A stretch of DNA of 6,382 nt from Rhodococcus sp. IITR03. Its GTDB lineage: Bacteria; Actinomycetota; Actinomycetes; Mycobacteriales; Mycobacteriaceae. Where the stretch lies: the NCBI GenBank assembly GCA_001017865.1, contig LATQ01000146.1, positions 1 to 6,382 on the forward strand. Reading direction: 5' to 3'. This document shows, piece by piece, positions 1 to 6,382 of the stretch. The notes below the pieces were generated by a model. That model saw only the letters and a list, made by a program, of their open reading frames with translations. It did not search any database and was not told where the DNA came from. A program made the position numbers and the translations under genes. Every line of letters begins with the position of its first letter. The first letter of the stretch is position 1.

Positions 1-332
1 CGGTGGCCAGGTCGAGTTCGACGTCGGTGGCACCGCCGCGGTGGACACGGCCTCGACCGCCGCTCGCGACAGCGGGGCGCGACCGAGATTGGTGTGCACC
101 ACCACGCCGGTCGCGTTGACGACGCGGCGCAGGTTGGTCGCCTGTTGCGGCAGCGACGCGACCGCGACGTCGGCGACGGCATCGGGCGCGACCTCGCCGT
201 CGCGGCACCGTTGCTGGGCCGCGACGACGGTCTGCTTGACCAGTCGGGCGCGAGCCGGTCGACGGCCTCTCGCAGGCGCGGATCGGCCAGCACCTGGTCG
301 GTGCGGGGAACGTCCCGTCTCGGATCCGGCAC
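1..332 (-). CDS. selA: SelA, L-seryl-tRNA(Sec) selenium transferase, N-terminal part (cut by window edge, two frameshifts)
   Basis: SelA is a PLP-dependent cytoplasmic enzyme that converts Ser-tRNA(Sec) to Sec-tRNA(Sec) using selenophosphate. On the minus strand a GTG start at 332-330, preceded by GGGGAG at 341-336, opens VPDPRRDVPRTDQVLADPRL. After a frame change comes the diagnostic SelA segment NATGVVVHTNLGRAPLSRAA (about 117-57), then, after another change, GATDVELDLAT at the left edge. Two single-base losses explain the breaks: one near 249-252 (restoring LGARLVKQ) and one at 33-34 (CC where CCC is expected). Only about 110 of roughly 430 residues are present, so the PLP-lysine domain lies outside. 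The start lies 32 bp after the tRNA-Sec 3' end on the same strand with no terminator between them, so the two are probably co-transcribed. Family assignment is firm; the exact start is less sure because the ribosome-binding-site spacing is short. Confidence 0.9.
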   Translation of the reverse strand, partial: MPDPRRDVPRTDQVLADPRLREAVDRLAPDWSSRPSSRPSNGAATARSRPMPSPTSRSRRCRNRRPTCAASSTRPAWWCTPISVAPRCRERRSRPCPPRRCHRRRTRPGH

Positions 333-364
333 GCGCTCCCCATCCCACGGTCGACGAAAACATT

Positions 365-458
365 TGGCGGAGGCGGACGGGAATCGAACCCGCCCAGCCA
401 GATACTGGGCCACAACGGTTTTGAAGACCGCGACCGTCACCAGACGAGAACCACCTCC
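365..458 (-). tRNA. selC: tRNA-Sec, anticodon UCA
   Basis: This is the selenocysteine tRNA that reads UGA. It can be folded by hand on the minus strand. The acceptor stem has 8 bp (GGAGGTGG with CCGCCTCC, one G-U pair), one longer than ordinary tRNAs. The D arm is extended to about 5 bp around a TGGT tetraloop. The anticodon loop is CTTCAAA with TCA at 424-422. The variable arm is long (CCAG/CTGG core), and the T loop is TTCGATT on a 5-bp stem. The discriminator base is G (368) and the CCA end is encoded (367-365). Length is 94 nt with CCA, close to the 95 nt of E. coli selC. The 8-bp acceptor, long variable arm and UCA anticodon together exclude tRNA-Ser or a suppressor tRNA. It lies between selA (same strand, downstream) and selD (divergent). 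Confidence 0.96.
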
Positions 459-470
459 GCGCTCACCCTA
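459..470 (-). promoter_or_regulatory. Putative selC-selA promoter (-10 element)
   Basis: On the minus strand a TAGGGT hexamer (470-465) fits the actinobacterial -10 pattern TAnnnT. It ends 6 nt before position 458, the first base of the mature tRNA-Sec. No good -35 is visible (a weak GTAAC-like stretch lies near 493-488). The position suggests that transcription starts at or very near the mature tRNA 5' end and continues into selA. This is inferred from spacing only. Confidence 0.45.
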
Positions 471-503
471 ACCGAAGTCGGGCCCTCGGTTACGACTCGC
501 CCG

Positions 504-517
504 TATGTTTGGGTTCA
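504..517 (+). promoter_or_regulatory. Putative selD promoter giving a leaderless mRNA
   Basis: TATGTT at 504-509 matches the TAnnnT -10 pattern and is followed by 7 nt, which would place the transcription start on the A of the ATG at 517. No Shine-Dalgarno sequence precedes either candidate ATG (505 or 517), which fits a leaderless transcript, a common mode in actinobacteria. No clear -35 is seen. It lies about 35 bp from the divergent selC -10, so RNA polymerase footprints at the two would overlap. Confidence 0.45.
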
Positions 518-1537
518 TGACCGCACACGTCGACCTTCCCGAGGGCGCCATCCGACTCACCCAGTACGCCGCCGGCGGCGGTTGCGCATGCAAGGTTCCG
601 CCGGGTGAACTCGAACGGGTGCTCGGCGGTCTGCAGGGTGGACGGGCCGCCGGCGAACTGTTGGTGGGCGTGGAGAACGGCGACGACGGTGCCGCGGTCC
701 GGATCGAACCGACGCCCGACGGGAGTGGCCGGGCCGTCATCGTGACGGCCGACTTCTTCACCCGGTCGTCGACGACGCCTACGACTGGGGACGGATCGCC
801 GCCACCAACGCCATGTCCGACGTCTACGCGATGGGTGGCACGCCGATCATCGCGGTCAACCTCCTGGGCTGGCCGCGCGAACTCATCCCGTTCGAACTCG
901 CCGCCGAGGTGATGCGCGGTGGCGCCGACGCGTGCGCCGAGGCGGGTGCTCATCTCGCCGGCGGGCACAGCATCGACGACCGGGAGCCGAAGTACGGGCT
1001 GGCCGTGACCGGTCTGGGCGATCGGATCGCCTGCTGCGCAACGACGCTGCCACGCCCGGCCTGCCCCTGACTCTCACCAAGCCGCTCGGTCTCGGCATCC
1101 TGAACAACCGGCACAAGGCCACCGGCGAGCGTTTCGAGGAAGCGGTCGCGGTGATGACGACTCTCAACCGCGAGGCGGCGCAACTCGCGCACGAGGCCGG
1201 TGTCCGAGCCGCCACCGACGTCACCGGTTTCGGTCTGCTCGGGCACCTGATGAAGATGATGCGGGCCAGCGGTACGACCGCCGTGATCGACTCCGCGGCC
1301 GTGCCGTACGTCGCCGGGGCGCGGGAGTCGCTCGCGGAGGGATTCGTCCCCGGCGGGAGCCGGCGCAATCTCGACTGGGTACGCGACGCGGTCGACTCCG
1401 AGGTGGACGACGACGAACTGCTCCTGCTCGCCGACGCCCAGACGTCCGGCGGTCTGCTGGTCGTCGGTGAGCTGCCCGGCCATCCGGTCATCGGCGAGGT
1501 GGTCCCCGCGGACGAACACGCGATCCGGGTGCGCTGA
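517..1537 (+). CDS. selD: SelD, selenide water dikinase (selenophosphate synthetase), two frameshifts
   Basis: SelD makes selenophosphate from selenide and ATP in the cytoplasm, the selenium donor for SelA. The protein opens [18 protein letters not shown] and carries the catalytic loop GGGCACK; Cys23 and Lys26 correspond to E. coli Cys17 and Lys20, so this is a Cys rather than a Sec form. Further SelD blocks follow: [11 protein letters not shown] (about 810-840), LAGGHSID (955-978), [11 protein letters not shown] (1217-1249) and DAQTSGGLL near the end. The frame drops by one base at 761-763 (CCC for CCCC, restoring [16 protein letters not shown]) and at 1023-1024 (one C missing, restoring GLGDPDRLLR). 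The repaired protein is 340 aa, against 347 in E. coli. An ATG at 505 is an alternative start; 517 fits the -10 spacing better. It is divergent from selC-selA. Confidence 0.94.
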
Positions 1538-1548
1538 CCCCGTTCATC

Positions 1549-1563
1549 GTCGGACATGCCGAC
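1549..1563. repeat. Small inverted repeat after selD
   Basis: GTCGG, a 5-nt spacer ACATG, then CCGAC: a 5-bp perfect stem starting 12 nt after the selD stop. No T tract follows, so it is at best a weak terminator or a protein-binding dyad. Confidence 0.3.
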
Positions 1564-1571
1564 ACACCTGC

Positions 1572-1595
1572 ACCGGATTAACCGGCACGAACCGG
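1572..1595. promoter_or_regulatory. Three phased ACCGG repeats upstream of the formate dehydrogenase operon
   Basis: ACCGG occurs at 1572-1576, 1581-1585 and 1591-1595, steps of 9 and 10 bp, about one helical turn. The first two also form a CCGG-ATTAA-CCGG inverted repeat (1573-1585). The cluster lies just upstream of the likely -10 and could be a regulator-binding site. CCGG-rich words are frequent in GC-rich DNA, so this stays tentative. Confidence 0.35.
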
Positions 1596-1605
1596 GGGTA
1601 GACGG

Positions 1606-1635
1606 TAGCTTCGGAACGAGAGCGCAGGAAAGGAG
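1606..1635 (+). promoter_or_regulatory. Putative fdnG promoter -10 and ribosome binding site
   Basis: TAGCTT at 1606-1611 fits the TAnnnT -10 pattern and would start transcription near 1618, giving a leader of about 23 nt. AGGAG at 1631-1635 is a good Shine-Dalgarno sequence 5 nt before the ATG at 1641 and fixes that start. No convincing -35 is seen; the ACCGG repeats occupy that region. Confidence 0.45.
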
Positions 1636-1640
1636 CACCG

Positions 1641-4600
1641 ATGGCGGAGAAGGACACGTCCCTCCCCTGGCCCGTCCTGCGCCAGTTCCTCGGCAAGGAT
1701 CTGCTCGGGCGCGGCAAGGCCGCACGGTCCCGTCGTACCGAGGAGATCGAACCGCGCACCTCCACCGCCGATCGTGTCGCCCGCAGCGTGTGCCCCTACT
1801 GCGCTGTCGGATGCGGACAGAAGATCTTCGTCAAGGACGAACAGGTCGTCCAGATCGAAGGCGATCCCGACAGCCCGGTGAACCGCGGGCGACTGTGCCC
1901 CAAGGGTTCGGCGAGCAAGAACCTCGTCACCAGCGAGCTGCGCGAAACCCGGGTCCGCTACCGCCGGCCCTACGGCACCGAATGGGAAGACCTCGATCTC
2001 GACACGGCCATGGAGATGGTCGTCGACCGCGTGCTGAAGACCCGCCGCGAGACCTGGCAGGAGTTCGACGACAAGGGCCACCGTGTCCGGCGCACGATGG
2101 GTATCGCCAGCCTCGGCGGTGCCACGCTGGACAACGAAGAGAATTACCTCATCAAGAAGCTGTTCACAGCGATGGGGGCGGTCCAGATCGAGAATCAGGC
2201 CCGCATATGACACTCCGCCACCGTCCCCGGTCTGGGGACCAGCTTCGGACGCGGCGGCGCCACCGGCTATACGGCCGACCTTGCAAACGCTGACTGCATC
2301 ATCATCCAGGGTTCCAACATGGCCGAGGCCACCCGGTGGGCTTCCAGTGGGTCGTGGAGGCCCAGAAGCGTGGTGCCCGCGTCATCCACATCGATCCGCG
2401 CTTCACCCGTACCAGCGCAGTGGCGGACAAGCACGTCCCGATCCGGGTAGCAGCGACATCGCCTTCCTCGGAGGCATCGTCAACTACGTCCTGAGCAACG
2501 AGCTGGACTTCCGCGAGTACGTGGTCAACTACACGAACGCCGCGGTGCTCGTCAGCGACAAGTTCGAGGACACCGACGATCTCGACGGGCTCTTCTCGGG
2601 CTTCGACCCCGAGAAGCGGACCTACGATCCGACGAGCTGGCAGTACGACGTGGAGGACGAATCCGGCGACCTGCACAAGTCGCAGGCCAACGGCTCCGAC
2701 GAGCACGCCGAGCATCGGGAGACCGCCGCGGGTTTGCAGAACGAGTCCCACGGCATGCAGACGTCGAGTCATCCGAGGCGCGACGAGACGCTGCAGCACC
2801 CGCGGTGCGTCTACCAGGTGCTCAAGCGGCACTTCGCCCGCTACACCCCCGAGGTGGTCGAGCAGGTGTGCGGCGTCTCGCAGGAGGACTTCCTCGACGT
2901 CTGCCGCGCGTGGACCGAGAACTCCGGCCGGGAGCGGACGACGGCGCTCGTCTACAGCGTGGGCTGGACCCAGCACAGTGTCGGTGTGCAGTACATCCGC
3001 ACCGGCGCGATCCTGCAGCTGCTGCTCGGCAACATGGGCCGCCCCGGCGGAGGCATCATGGCGCTGCGGGGTCACGCCAGCATCCAGGGCTCGACCGACA
3101 TCCCGACGCTGTTCAACCTGTTGCCCGGCTACCTGCCGATGCCCGACGCGAACAAGCACCACTCGTTCACGGACTGGGTCGACAGCGTGCGCAACCCGGG
3201 CAGCAAGGGTTTCTGGTCGAAGGCCGACGCCTACGCGGTGAACCTGCTCAAGGCCTACTGGGCGACGCGGCGACCGCCGACAACGACTACTGCTTCGACT
3301 ACATGCCGAAGATCACCGGCGACCACGGCACCTATCGTTCGGTGCTCGACATGATCGACGGAAAGGTCAAGGGCTACTTCCTCCTCGGGCAGAACCCGGC
3401 CGTCGGCTCCGCGCACGGGCGCGCCCAGCGGCTCGGGATGGCTAACCTCGACTGGCTCGTGGTGCGCGACCTGTTCGAGATCGAGAGCGCCAACTTCTGG
3501 AAGGACTCCCCGGAAATCGAGACCGGTGAGATCGTGACCGAGGAGTGCCCCACCGAGGTGTTCCTCTTCCCGGCGGCCTCCTACGCCGAGAAGGAAGGCA
3601 CCTTCACGCAGACCCAGCGGATGCTGCAATGGCGGGAGAAGGCCGTCGAACCACCGGAGGACTGCCGCTCGGAACTGTGGTTCTTCTACCACCTCGGCCG
3701 CATGATGCGGGAGCGTCTGGCCGAGTCGACCGACGAGCGCGACCGGCCGCTGCTCGACCTGGCGTGGGACTACCCCGTGCACGGCGAGTACGACGAGCCA
3801 GTGCCGACGCGGTGCTCATGGAGATCAACGGTTACGACGTCGCGACCCGCCGGCCGCTGTCGTCGTTCACCGAGATGAAGAACGACGGCTCCACCCTCGG
3901 TGGCTGCTGGATCTACACCGGGGTCTACGCCGACGGCGTCAACCAGGCCAACCGGCGCAAGTCCCGGCACGAGCAGTCGTTCGTGGCTCCCGAGTGGGGC
4001 TGGGCGTGGCCGATGAACCGCCGCATTCTCTACAACCGGGCCTCCGCCGACCCCGAGGCCGGCCGTGGAGCGAACGCAAGGCCTACGTGTGGTGGGACGA
4101 CGACGCGCAGCAGTGGACGGGTGCGGATGTTCCGGACTTCGAGAAGACGAAGCCGCCGAACTACCGCTCCCCCGAAGGCGCCGACGGTGTCGAGGCGCTC
4201 GAAGGGATCGACCCGTTCATCATGCAGGGCGACGGCAAAGGCGCCCTCTACGTGCCGCAGGGGCTCGTCGACGGTCCGATGCCGACGCACTACGAACCGG
4301 TGGAGTCGCCGTTCCGCAACCCGCTCTACGCGCAGCAGGCCAACCCGACGCGCAAGGAGTACCGGCGTGACGACAACCCGATGAACCCGGCGCCGCCGGA
4401 GGACCACGTCGACGTGTTCCCCTTCGTGTTCACGACGAGCCGTCTCACCGAGCACCACACCGCAGGCGGGATGAGCCGCTATCTCGAACATCTCGCCGAA
4501 CTGCAACCGGAGATGTTCGTGGAGGTCTCCCCTGCCCTGGCGGCCGAACGCGGACTCGAGCACATGCTGGTGCCACGTCGTCACCGCCCGCTCCGCGATC

Positions 4601-4978
4601 GAGGGCCGGGTCCTGGTGACCGAGCGGTTGCGGCCGCTGAAGGTGGAGGGACGGACCGTCCACCAGGTATGGATGCCCTATCACTGGGGCAGCGGCGGCA
4701 TGGTGACCGGCGACTCGACCAACGATCTGTTCGGCATCACGTTGGACCCCAACGTGCTCATCCAGGAGACCAAGGTCGGTACGTGCGACGTCCGGGCAGG
4801 ACGCCGACCGTCCGGAACGGCACTGCGGGAGTACGTCGAGGGATATGCGCGGCGGGCGGGGGTAACCGACCACGTGTACCCACCCATCGTGACCGTCCCG
4901 GACGGCGATACGGTCTCGGACGACCCCCGTGCCCCGGAGGCCCCGGACGACCCACGTGCCCCGGAGGAGGACGAGTGA
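1641..4978 (+). CDS. fdnG: Formate dehydrogenase catalytic (alpha) subunit, selenocysteine-containing, FdnG type; six apparent frameshifts
   Basis: This subunit oxidises formate to CO2 at a Mo (or W) bis-MGD centre and passes electrons to Fe-S clusters. The N-terminal [4Fe-4S] motif uses Cys51, 54, 58 and 86 (CPYCAVGC, then GRLCPKG). The UGA at 2208-2210 encodes Sec190 in NQARI-U-HSATVPG, followed by the conserved His. Later blocks include VDSKFEDTDD-like FdnG core, GWTQHSVGVQYIRT, LLLGNMGRPGGG, RGHASIQGSTD and RLTEHHTAGGMSR. Reading frame changes near 2329, 2450, 3261, 3799, 4058 and 4566; the first five each lose one G or C, the last loses two. Repair gives 1115 codons (1114 aa), against 1015 aa in E. 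coli FdnG. The N terminus has no twin-arginine signal, and a hydrophilic insertion covers about residues 337-380. The stop overlaps the next start by 4 bp. A standard gene caller would end this gene at the UGA. Confidence 0.93.
2208..2210 (+). other. In-frame UGA recoded as selenocysteine (Sec190)
   Basis: The UGA is exactly in the fdnG frame (codon 190 from the ATG at 1641). Family homology continues without a break on both sides: NQARI before it, HSATVPGLGTSFGRGG after it. E. coli FdnG has Sec in the same context (recalled: NQAR-V-U-H). The presence of selA, selC and selD in the same window supports recoding rather than a stop. Confidence 0.96.
2211..2247 (+). promoter_or_regulatory. Bacterial SECIS hairpin for SelB-dependent UGA decoding
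   Basis: A 6-bp stem GTCCCC (2223-2228) with GGGGAC (2234-2239) closes a GGTCT loop (2229-2233). The GGUCU loop is the SelB-contacting sequence of the E. coli fdhF SECIS. Eighteen bases separate the UGA from the loop, the same number as I recall for fdhF, and GGU-CUG falls in the same codon phase. The hairpin lies inside the coding sequence and encodes V-P-G-L-G-T. The bulged U of the E. coli element is not obvious: U2224 can pair with A2238. Confidence 0.88.
4919..4966 (+). repeat. Two-copy 27-bp tandem repeat at the 3' end of fdnG
   Basis: A 21-bp unit at 4919-4939 recurs at 4946-4966 with one mismatch (C to A), period 27 bp. It is in frame and encodes DDPRAPE-AP-DDPRAPE, giving the protein an acidic, proline-rich tail. 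The second copy runs into GGAGGAGG (4963-4970), the ribosome binding site of the next gene. Confidence 0.8.
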
Positions 4979-5790
4979 CCGGCCCCAACAGCTTCTTCGG
5001 ACCGATCGACCCGGCACCCGATGCCGGGTACGAGGATCCGCCGGCTCGCAAGGGCTTCTTCACCGACACCAGTGTGTGCATCGGGTGCAAGGCCTGCGAG
5101 GTGGCCTGCAAGGAGTGGAACGACGTCCCCGAGAACGCATTCGCGATGCTCGGTACCTCGTACGACAACAGTCATTCGCTCAACGCCAACCAGTGGCGGC
5201 ACGTCGCCTTCATCGAGCGCCCTGCGGAGTCGAAACCCCCGGTCTCGCTGGGGATGCCGACCGTCGGGGCGACCCCGACGGAACTTCCGGAGGAGGAGAA
5301 GCCGGACTTCCGCTGGTTGATGTCCTCGGACGTGTGCAAGCACTGCACCCACGCGGCGTGCCTCGACGTGTGCCCGACCGGGTCGCTGTTCCGCAGCGAG
5401 TTCGGCACGGTGGTCGTGCAGGACGACATCTGCAACGGCTGCGGATACTGCGTGGCCGCCTGCCCGTACGGCGTCATCGACCGCCGCAAGGGTCCGGAGG
5501 GCGACCCGAAGGTCGGTATCGCCCAGAAGTGCACGCTGTGCTACGACCGGCTCACCGACGGCCAGACCCCGTCCTGCGCGCAGGCGTGCCCCACGGAGTC
5601 GATCCAGTACGGCGACGTCGAGGAACTGCGCGCTCGCGCCGAGGAACGGCTGGCTGCCCTGCACGAGCGCGGCGTGAGCGAGGCACGGCTCTACGGCAAC
5701 GATCCCGAGGACGGGGTCGGCGGGACCGGCGCCTTCTTCCTGCTCCTCGACGAACCGGAGGTCTACGGCCTGCCGCCGGATCCGTGGTGA
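4975..5790 (+). CDS. fdnH: Formate dehydrogenase iron-sulfur (beta) subunit, FdnH type
   Basis: This electron-transfer subunit links the catalytic subunit to the membrane partner. The protein has 271 aa and sixteen Cys in four ferredoxin-type motifs: Cys35/38/41/45 (CIGCKACEVAC), Cys121/124/129/133 (CKHCTHAACLDVC), Cys153/156/159/163 (CNGCGYCVAAC) and Cys186/189/201/205 (CTLC, then CAQAC), enough for four [4Fe-4S] clusters. The order matches the FdnH/HybA/DmsB superfamily. The GTG start overlaps the fdnG stop (GTGA) and has GGAGGAGG at 4963-4970, pointing to translational coupling. It is the only protein gene here with an unbroken frame. E. coli FdnH is about 294 aa with a C-terminal membrane helix; this one ends VYGLPPDPW with no hydrophobic stretch, so anchoring must come from the NrfD partner. 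Confidence 0.93.
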   Translation: MTGPNSFFGPIDPAPDAGYEDPPARKGFFTDTSVCIGCKACEVACKEWNDVPENAFAMLGTSYDNSHSLNANQWRHVAFIERPAESKPPVSLGMPTVGATPTELPEEEKPDFRWLMSSDVCKHCTHAACLDVCPTGSLFRSEFGTVVVQDDICNGCGYCVAACPYGVIDRRKGPEGDPKVGIAQKCTLCYDRLTDGQTPSCAQACPTESIQYGDVEELRARAEERLAALHERGVSEARLYGNDPEDGVGGTGAFFLLLDEPEVYGLPPDPW

Positions 5791-5882
5791 CGACCAAGGA
5801 TCTGCCGGAGATGTGGACCCGCGCCGCCGTAGCGCGTCGCGATGCTGGCGGGCGCCGCCGCGTCCTTCCTGAGGAGGCGCTG
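5791..5882 (+). other. Spacer between beta and membrane subunit, open in the nrfD frame
   Basis: These 92 bp carry no stop in the frame of the ATG at 5883. A GTG at 5787, overlapping the fdnH stop, could therefore extend NrfD by 32 residues (VTTKDLPEMWTRAAVARRDA and on). GAGGAGG at 5871-5877 favours the ATG at 5883 as the start. A 13-codon frame from ATG 5842 ends TGATG against that start, but nothing supports it as a gene. Confidence 0.4.
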
Positions 5883-6382
5883 ATGACCCAGGTGCAGCAC
5901 GGCGGCGCCCGGGCAACCCCCGCCGGTCCGGAGGTGGTCGCGGCGGCGACCGGGTGATGGTGCCGGAGGCCGACTTCGAGTCCTATTACGGACGTCAGAT
6001 CGTGAAACCGGCTCCGTGGGAGCACGACATCGCGATCTATCTGTTCACCGGCGGCGTGGCCGCAGGCAGTTCGCTGCTCGCTGCGGGTGCCGATCTCACG
6101 GGGCGGCCCGCCCTCCGTCGCGTTGCCCGATTCGGTTCGCTCACATCGCTGCTCGTCAGTGTCGGTGCGCTGGTCCACGATCTCGGCAAACCGAGCCGCT
6201 TCCTCAACATGCTGCGGGTCGCCAAACCGACCTCCCCGATGTCGGTCGGGACGTGGATCCTGTCGCTGCACGGTCCGTTCGCGGGCGTCGCGGCGGTCGC
6301 GGAGATCGCCGAGATGCTCCCCGCCCGATGGAAGCGCGGACCGGTGCGCCTGCGCTGCTCGCCCTCGGCCGGCCCGCCGGGG
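5883..6382 (+). CDS. nrfD: NrfD-family (polysulfide reductase-like) membrane subunit, N-terminal part, two probable frameshifts, cut by window edge
   Basis: NrfD-family proteins are multi-helix membrane subunits that pass electrons between an Fe-S partner and quinones. Here one would serve as the anchor and quinone site of the formate dehydrogenase, in place of the cytochrome b subunit FdnI of E. coli. Visible hallmarks are PWEHDIAIYLFTGGVAAGSS (from about 6014), ALVHDLGKPSRFLNMLRV (about 6170-6223) and KPTSPMSVGTWILS. About three hydrophobic helices are present before the edge. ATG 5883 has GAGGAGG at 5871-5877. One C seems lost at 5928-5929 (repair joins ATPAGP to GGGRGGDRVMVPEADF) and one G near 6348 (repair gives PVRPALLALGRPAG). 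Alternative starts are GTG 5787, in the same frame, and GTG 5954 or ATG 5957, which lie after the first break. The family is clear; the start is uncertain. Confidence 0.85.

Follow-up and report, generated by a model that had tools for sequence, protein, structure and literature searches.

A predicted selenocysteine insertion element behind the in-frame UGA codon of a Rhodococcus formate dehydrogenase gene

The formate dehydrogenase gene fdnG of Rhodococcus sp. IITR03 contains an in-frame UGA codon, and the hairpin that follows it has the form of a canonical bacterial SECIS for selenocysteine insertion. We place the probability of this reading at about 0.97; SelB binding, insertion and metal ligation would follow from what is known of such systems. 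The finding belongs to a known class and is ordinary within it. It illustrates that a reader with access to the sequence alone can spot a recoding signal where standard gene prediction would cut the protein short. The stretch of DNA analysed, referred to as the window, comprises 6,382 nt (GCA_001017865.1, LATQ01000146.1:1-6,382, forward strand). Its positions 1-6380 align colinearly, at a DNA identity of 79.8%, with a single Nocardioides sp. SYSU D00778 contig (locus L001), so that the window looks like a chromosomal actinobacterial region. A phage or viral origin was considered and rejected, as the phage collection returned no match with the 'near' setting and a 33-nt piece had no exact match in viral contigs. 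The following features were assigned.

1..363, minus strand: selA, 5' part, cut by the window end, with an apparent frame change (read by eye, VVNATGVVVHTNLGRAPLS, and by colinearity with L001)
369..458, minus strand: selC, tRNA-Sec with UCA anticodon (76.7 bits to Rfam RF01852, whose gathering score is 47)
517..1537, plus strand: selD, selenophosphate synthetase, with frame changes (TIGR00476, two pieces in two frames, 99.4 and 159.6 bits, cut-off 125; start set by eye)
1641..4978, plus strand: fdnG, formate dehydrogenase alpha subunit, predicted selenoprotein (partial match to NF041513, formate_DH_Act; colinear with L001)
2208..2210, plus strand: UGA codon 190 of fdnG, predicted to be read as selenocysteine (relatives have TGA, TAG or Cys here; the frame continues on both sides)
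2223..2228, plus strand: predicted SECIS stem, 5' arm GUCCCC (folding, conservation, covariation)
2229..2233, plus strand: predicted SECIS apical loop GGUCU (folding; [G/A]GU[C/U]U in 88/88 distinct Sec relatives of at least 53% identity)
2234..2239, plus strand: predicted SECIS stem, 3' arm GGGGAC (folding, conservation, covariation)
4975..5790, plus strand: fdnH, formate dehydrogenase beta (4Fe-4S) subunit (TIGR01582, 170.6 bits, under the cut-off of 334.7; Fer4 domains)
5954..6382, plus strand: formate dehydrogenase gamma (NrfD-like membrane) subunit, truncated where the window ends, start uncertain (PF03916, 56.6 bits)

NF041513 is the NCBI model for actinobacterial formate dehydrogenase, of the kind 'exception'. 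Residues 9-229 of the fdnG product match its profile positions 5-225 of 1067 with 427 bits, which lies under the whole-protein cut-off of 1400 because only part of the protein was scanned, the blocks separated by later frame changes being unjoined. For selA, a family profile scan of its two short pieces gave no family match.

The UGA codon and the hairpin that follows it

The earlier note, which was made from the sequence alone, had described an in-frame UGA followed 18 nt later by a GGTCT loop on a perfect 6-bp stem, and this description was confirmed. Counted in frame from the ATG at 1641, the UGA at 2208-2210 is codon 190, the gap between it and the loop measures exactly 18 nt (2211-2228), and the hairpin GUCCCC-GGUCU-GGGGAC (2223-2239) forms six of six pairs, five of them G-C and one U-A. 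RNA folding, which the note had proposed as a check, gave the identical hairpin in all four stretches folded, with a minimum energy of -11.4 kcal/mol for 2221-2241 (ViennaRNA). The folding energy alone is not striking, because its z-score is -1.59 with 14 of 200 shuffles folding equally well, and the longer stretches are weaker still (z of -0.81, -1.08 and +0.60).

The window holds 108 TGA triplets (46 on the plus and 62 on the minus strand), and a six-pair stem at this spacing is found only after the UGA at 2208-2210. When both strands of the window and of 80 related loci were searched, 175 of 16,450 TGA triplets had a six-pair stem at this spacing, 71 had a GGTCT, AGTCT or AGTTT loop there, and 62 had both stem and loop; all 62 match the sequence pattern of the fdh site. 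It is thus the combination of TGA, spacing and six-pair stem, not the energy, that is beyond chance.

The hairpin was also compared with published descriptions of such elements, in the portions of these sources that were available. In the bSECIS model (PMC13188914, Fig. 2 legend) the apical loop has 3-9 nt, the upper stem 4-16 bp, a G lies in the first two loop positions, the spacing from Sec codon to loop is 16-37 nt and the minimum free energy is at or below -7.5 kcal/mol. The window hairpin agrees in all four respects, with a 5-nt loop on a 6-bp stem, the loop sequence GGUCU, a spacing of 18 nt and a ViennaRNA energy of -11.4 kcal/mol. The available text of PMC8704476 names as features of the bacterial SECIS a neighbouring G and U that stay unpaired in the loop, and a U that bulges from the upper stem. 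G2230 and U2231 are unpaired in the window loop, and this GU is kept in 88/88 distinct Sec relatives.

An outer 4-bp helix (alignment columns 7-10 with 39-42) appeared when the window was folded alone. It was rejected as a component of the element, being poorly conserved: when the window was aligned with 25 sequences selected among the 80 loci (26 in all), 69.2% of the cells of this helix were paired, while the inner stem reached 99.4%, and RNAalifold drops the helix. The same program predicts one more pair, the seventh, within the loop (columns 22-26, G-U or A-U).

Conservation and covariation among relatives

Relatives were drawn from the best 80 of 575 matching loci in the genome collection, in which the Sec codon is TGA in 62 cases and TAG in 18, from a phylum set in which 325 of 396 genomes matched (30 loci and 60 further among the matches listed) and from a class set in which 243 of 296 genomes matched (30 loci taken). 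With the window included, this gave 201 rows, with TGA in 160, TAG in 18, TGC in 19 and TGT in 4. The main count is confined to rows of at least 53% identity to the window, namely 164 rows with Sec, comprising 88 distinct elements, and 19 with Cys, comprising 17. These 183 rows correspond to 177 distinct stretches (160 Sec, 17 Cys), six places being present under two locus ids.

All six standard pairs are kept in 84 of the 88 distinct Sec sequences and in 0/17 distinct Cys sequences, a difference to be read as a single phylogenetic contrast, since the Cys homologues of at least 53% identity form one lineage, with two codon-state changes in all on the tree. The four Sec sequences that fail have U-U at 16-30 (two) or G-G at 17-29 (two), these numbers being offsets relative to the Sec codon's first base. 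The loop reads GGUCU in 69 of the 88 elements, AGUCU in 14 and AGUUU in five. When relatives below 53% identity are added, the six pairs hold in 91, 89, 90, 87, 93 and 88 of 93 distinct Sec sequences, the losses arising because some older formate dehydrogenase branches pair otherwise, for example as GCC-GGUCU-CGGC. One distant row has the loop GCGUU, and the full stem is found in none of four more distant Cys rows. The arrangement GCC-GGUCU-CGGC was seen in the distant Sec formate dehydrogenase genes L164, L169, L170, L172, L174 and L178; it can pair only if the 3' side is moved by one base, which gives the same loop another stem geometry.

The reading frame places two of the stem pairs, 17-29 and 20-26, between wobble positions. 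Among the 88 Sec elements, 17-29 is C-G in 44, U-A in 14, G-C in 14, U-G in eight, G-U in six and G-G in two, and 20-26 is C-G in 81 and G-C in seven. Amino-acid-preserving shuffles, which ignore relatedness and were run on 84 distinct sequences before the two 17-29 G-G cells joined, paired on average 46.6 times at 17-29 (maximum 61) and 71.2 times at 20-26 (maximum 78), against 84/84 observed at both, a value reached in 0/10,000 shuffles in either case. The loop shows synonymous constraint: its Gly codon is GGT in 141/141 Gly-coding Sec rows, the other 23 of the 164 rows having AGT (Ser), whereas in the remainder of these gene stretches GGT accounts for 406 of 3,095 Gly codons, and the loop codon is GGT in 3/19 Cys rows.

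The 26-sequence alignment has a covariation score of 0.291; shuffles give 0.128 (0/500 attain the observed value), and sliding the stem along gives 0.107 at most. Two-sided change occurs at one pair only in this set, and two of five measures lie within the shuffles (pairs changed on both sides, 443/500; further pair types, 81/500). On a FastTree tree of 174 proteins, from which the residues around the Sec site had been removed, parsimony requires 22 and 21 changes for the two bases of pair 17-29, and five for each base of pair 20-26. Independent-pairs sign tests for the stem pairs on supported branches had three to nine pairs each and median p values of 0.06 to 0.5, and no pairing ran in the wrong direction.

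The stem is therefore conserved with compensatory changes, and the lack of stem conservation among close homologues that the earlier note had named as evidence against its proposal is not what the relatives display. The test of the stem that it had called for came out in its favour. Its interpretation is supported, in that the element bears the marks of a SECIS of the bacterial type within a selenocysteine formate dehydrogenase gene from an actinobacterium; recognition by SelB would be expected from such a pattern. For this branch the consensus is GU-N-CC[C/G]-[G/A]GU[C/U]U-[G/C]GG-N-[A/G]-[C/U], with the two N pairing (84/88 distinct sequences), and it could be used to seek further Sec genes in Actinobacteria.

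The note had further remarked that the usual bulged U appears to be replaced by a U-A pair, and had offered this as a lineage difference. The first part agrees with our folding, in which U2224, the 14th nucleotide after the UGA, is predicted to pair with A2238. The second part needs qualifying: the U is invariant in 88/88 distinct Sec relatives but faces A in 60 of them, G in 26 and U in two, and with a partner that varies in this way a firm U-A pair is no lineage rule. In crystal structures of Moorella SelB with SECIS RNA, the stem is reported to be unbulged and to carry a GGUCU loop. The codon that holds the U encodes Val in the 19 Cys rows as well, so that RNA and protein constraints on it are indistinguishable here.

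The Cys lineage (L123, L124, L184, L186-L197, L199, L203) has 62-72% identity to the Sec enzyme, and stems inside it are scattered. The sixth residue after Sec is Pro in 164/164 Sec rows, whose loop codon encodes Gly or Ser only; in the Cys lineage this stem-coding Pro is replaced by Ala, Val or Ser in 19/19 rows. One might imagine that the RNA element dictates the protein sequence here, with the Pro serving the stem rather than the enzyme and the 14th-nucleotide U being weakly paired for flip-out by SelB; we consider this doubtful, at perhaps one chance in a few.

State of the locus and other readings of the UGA

Alignment of fdnG with the L001 protein yields seven blocks, in frames 3, 2, 1, 3, 2, 1 and 2, and hence six frame changes. 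At least one more is present in selD, and apparent ones were seen by eye in selA and at the gamma start. From the fdnG start codon to the end of the hairpin there is no frame change, all six lying downstream of the SECIS; in the frame from 1641, UGA 190 is the sole stop, and the first block aligned with L001 extends beyond 2239. Across 1,001 codons, fdnG differs from L001 at 121 first, 88 second and 318 third positions (12.1%, 8.8% and 31.8%). This pattern is that of purifying selection, which makes sequencing indels the likeliest cause, and the frame changes in fdnG, selD, selA and at the gamma start are probably of this kind. The tRNA-Sec of the window is 90 nt long, whereas those matched in six related loci have 91 nt, the difference lying in the variable-arm loop; this length is either natural or due to another indel.

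These breaks are what would favour regarding the locus as a former Sec formate dehydrogenase that is now a decaying pseudogene, with the SECIS as a relic. We judge this very unlikely. The differences by codon position argue for selection on the protein, the breaks are spread across several genes as expected of sequencing indels, the tRNA-Sec matches the RF01852 model end to end, and the SECIS is intact. Less probable still is that the UGA is a true stop ending a 189-residue fragment and the hairpin a by-product of conserved protein sequence. The encoded amino acids are indeed conserved and would tend to keep four of the six pairs, those of first and second codon bases, but the synonymous wobble positions covary and the Gly codon of the loop is invariably GGT. 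Moreover, the frame continues past the UGA, the spanning piece being 81% identical to L001 at the protein level, the position is Cys in 19 of the 183 rows of at least 53% identity, and a tRNA-Sec lies in the same cluster. We give equally little credence to a SelB-independent decoding, in which general recoding or a suppressor tRNA would place some other amino acid at the UGA, and for which no point in favour was found. A dedicated tRNA-Sec and selD are present, and the full hairpin accompanies UGA or UAG and is seen in none of the 17 Cys sequences. In addition, selD, fdnG and fdnH themselves end in TGA, so that UGA serves as a stop here.

The gene for SelB is absent from the 6,382-nt window. 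Matches to the selB family were obtained in 12/12 relatives, nine of them above the cut-off, and in 14/14 control genomes, two of them above it; since all controls match the family, only matches over the cut-off and genomic position are informative. The SelB locus overlaps the formate dehydrogenase locus at 100% identity in five of the 12 relatives (L001, L002, L003, L005, L006), and in a sixth, L041, the loci directly adjoin each other. On the L001 contig, a SelB homologue of 228.9 bits, just below the cut-off of 242.25, lies about 2.6 kb before the formate dehydrogenase match, and L081 has a SelB with the winged-helix domain PF09107.

With UGA 190 read as selenocysteine, the proposed course of events is as follows. 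A ribosome would meet the UGA with the hairpin at nucleotides 13 to 29 after it. By analogy with established knowledge of SelB, the C-terminal winged-helix domain of this protein would bind the hairpin through the GGUCU loop, and SelB, which is also an elongation factor, would bring Sec-tRNA(Sec), so that selenocysteine would be inserted instead of termination. From what is known of formate dehydrogenases, this residue would become a metal ligand of the active site.

Comparison with known systems

A DNA-similarity search gave no match in E. coli, and fdhF, fdnG and fdoG of E. coli K-12 were therefore taken from NC_000913.3 by coordinates. The likeness to fdhF in loop, distance and codon phase, which the earlier note had put forward together with a different stem, proved right on this sequence. 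All three E. coli genes share with the window the 18 nt from UGA to loop, the codon phase and the U at the 14th nucleotide, whereas their stem sequences differ from it. The fdhF loop is GGUCU, as in the window; fdnG and fdoG have AGUCU and are identical to each other in the compared stretch. In folds of 24-nt pieces, a U is bulged in E. coli (15th nucleotide in fdhF, 14th in fdnG and fdoG) whereas the window U is paired with A, although a 30-nt piece of fdhF folds differently from the 24-nt piece. The residues after Sec are HGP in the E. coli proteins and HSA in the window. UHxP is given as the motif for the alpha subunit of formate dehydrogenase in Table 1 of PMC13188914, as far as the available text goes; the window reads U-H-S-A-T and its near relatives H-S-[A/S]-T, so that UHxP is absent letter for letter.

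Other counterparts are already published for Actinobacteria, namely Sec formate dehydrogenases with SECIS predictions, variants that use UAG, and clusters of sel with fdh genes, according to the accessible portions of the following reports. Actinomycetospora chiangmaiensis DSM 45062 has Sec formate dehydrogenase alpha genes with SECIS elements predicted by bSECISearch, SelA and SelB in its FDH1 cluster, selenium-dependent formate removal and an FdhA detected by proteomics (PMC7176365); it is like the window by description. The selABCD-fdnG region of Corynebacterium aurimucosum, in which sel genes are clustered with a UGA-containing fdnG (PMC2830990), likewise resembles the window in this clustering, by description. 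In formate dehydrogenases of Geodermatophilaceae, UAG is used as the Sec codon (PMC5330540), and this is the same gene as in the window with UAG instead of UGA. A tRNA-Sec scan at the gathering threshold, covering the stretches of four of our 18 TAG loci (L012, L013, L017, L020), found none. The same gene and hairpin with TAG were present in 18 of the best 80 of 575 loci here (L012, L013, L016, L017, L020, L021, L023, L024, L027, L028, L029, L032, L037, L039, L046, L058, L060, L065), all with the SECIS kept, and the distinct TAG elements among them retain six pairs in 11/11 cases.
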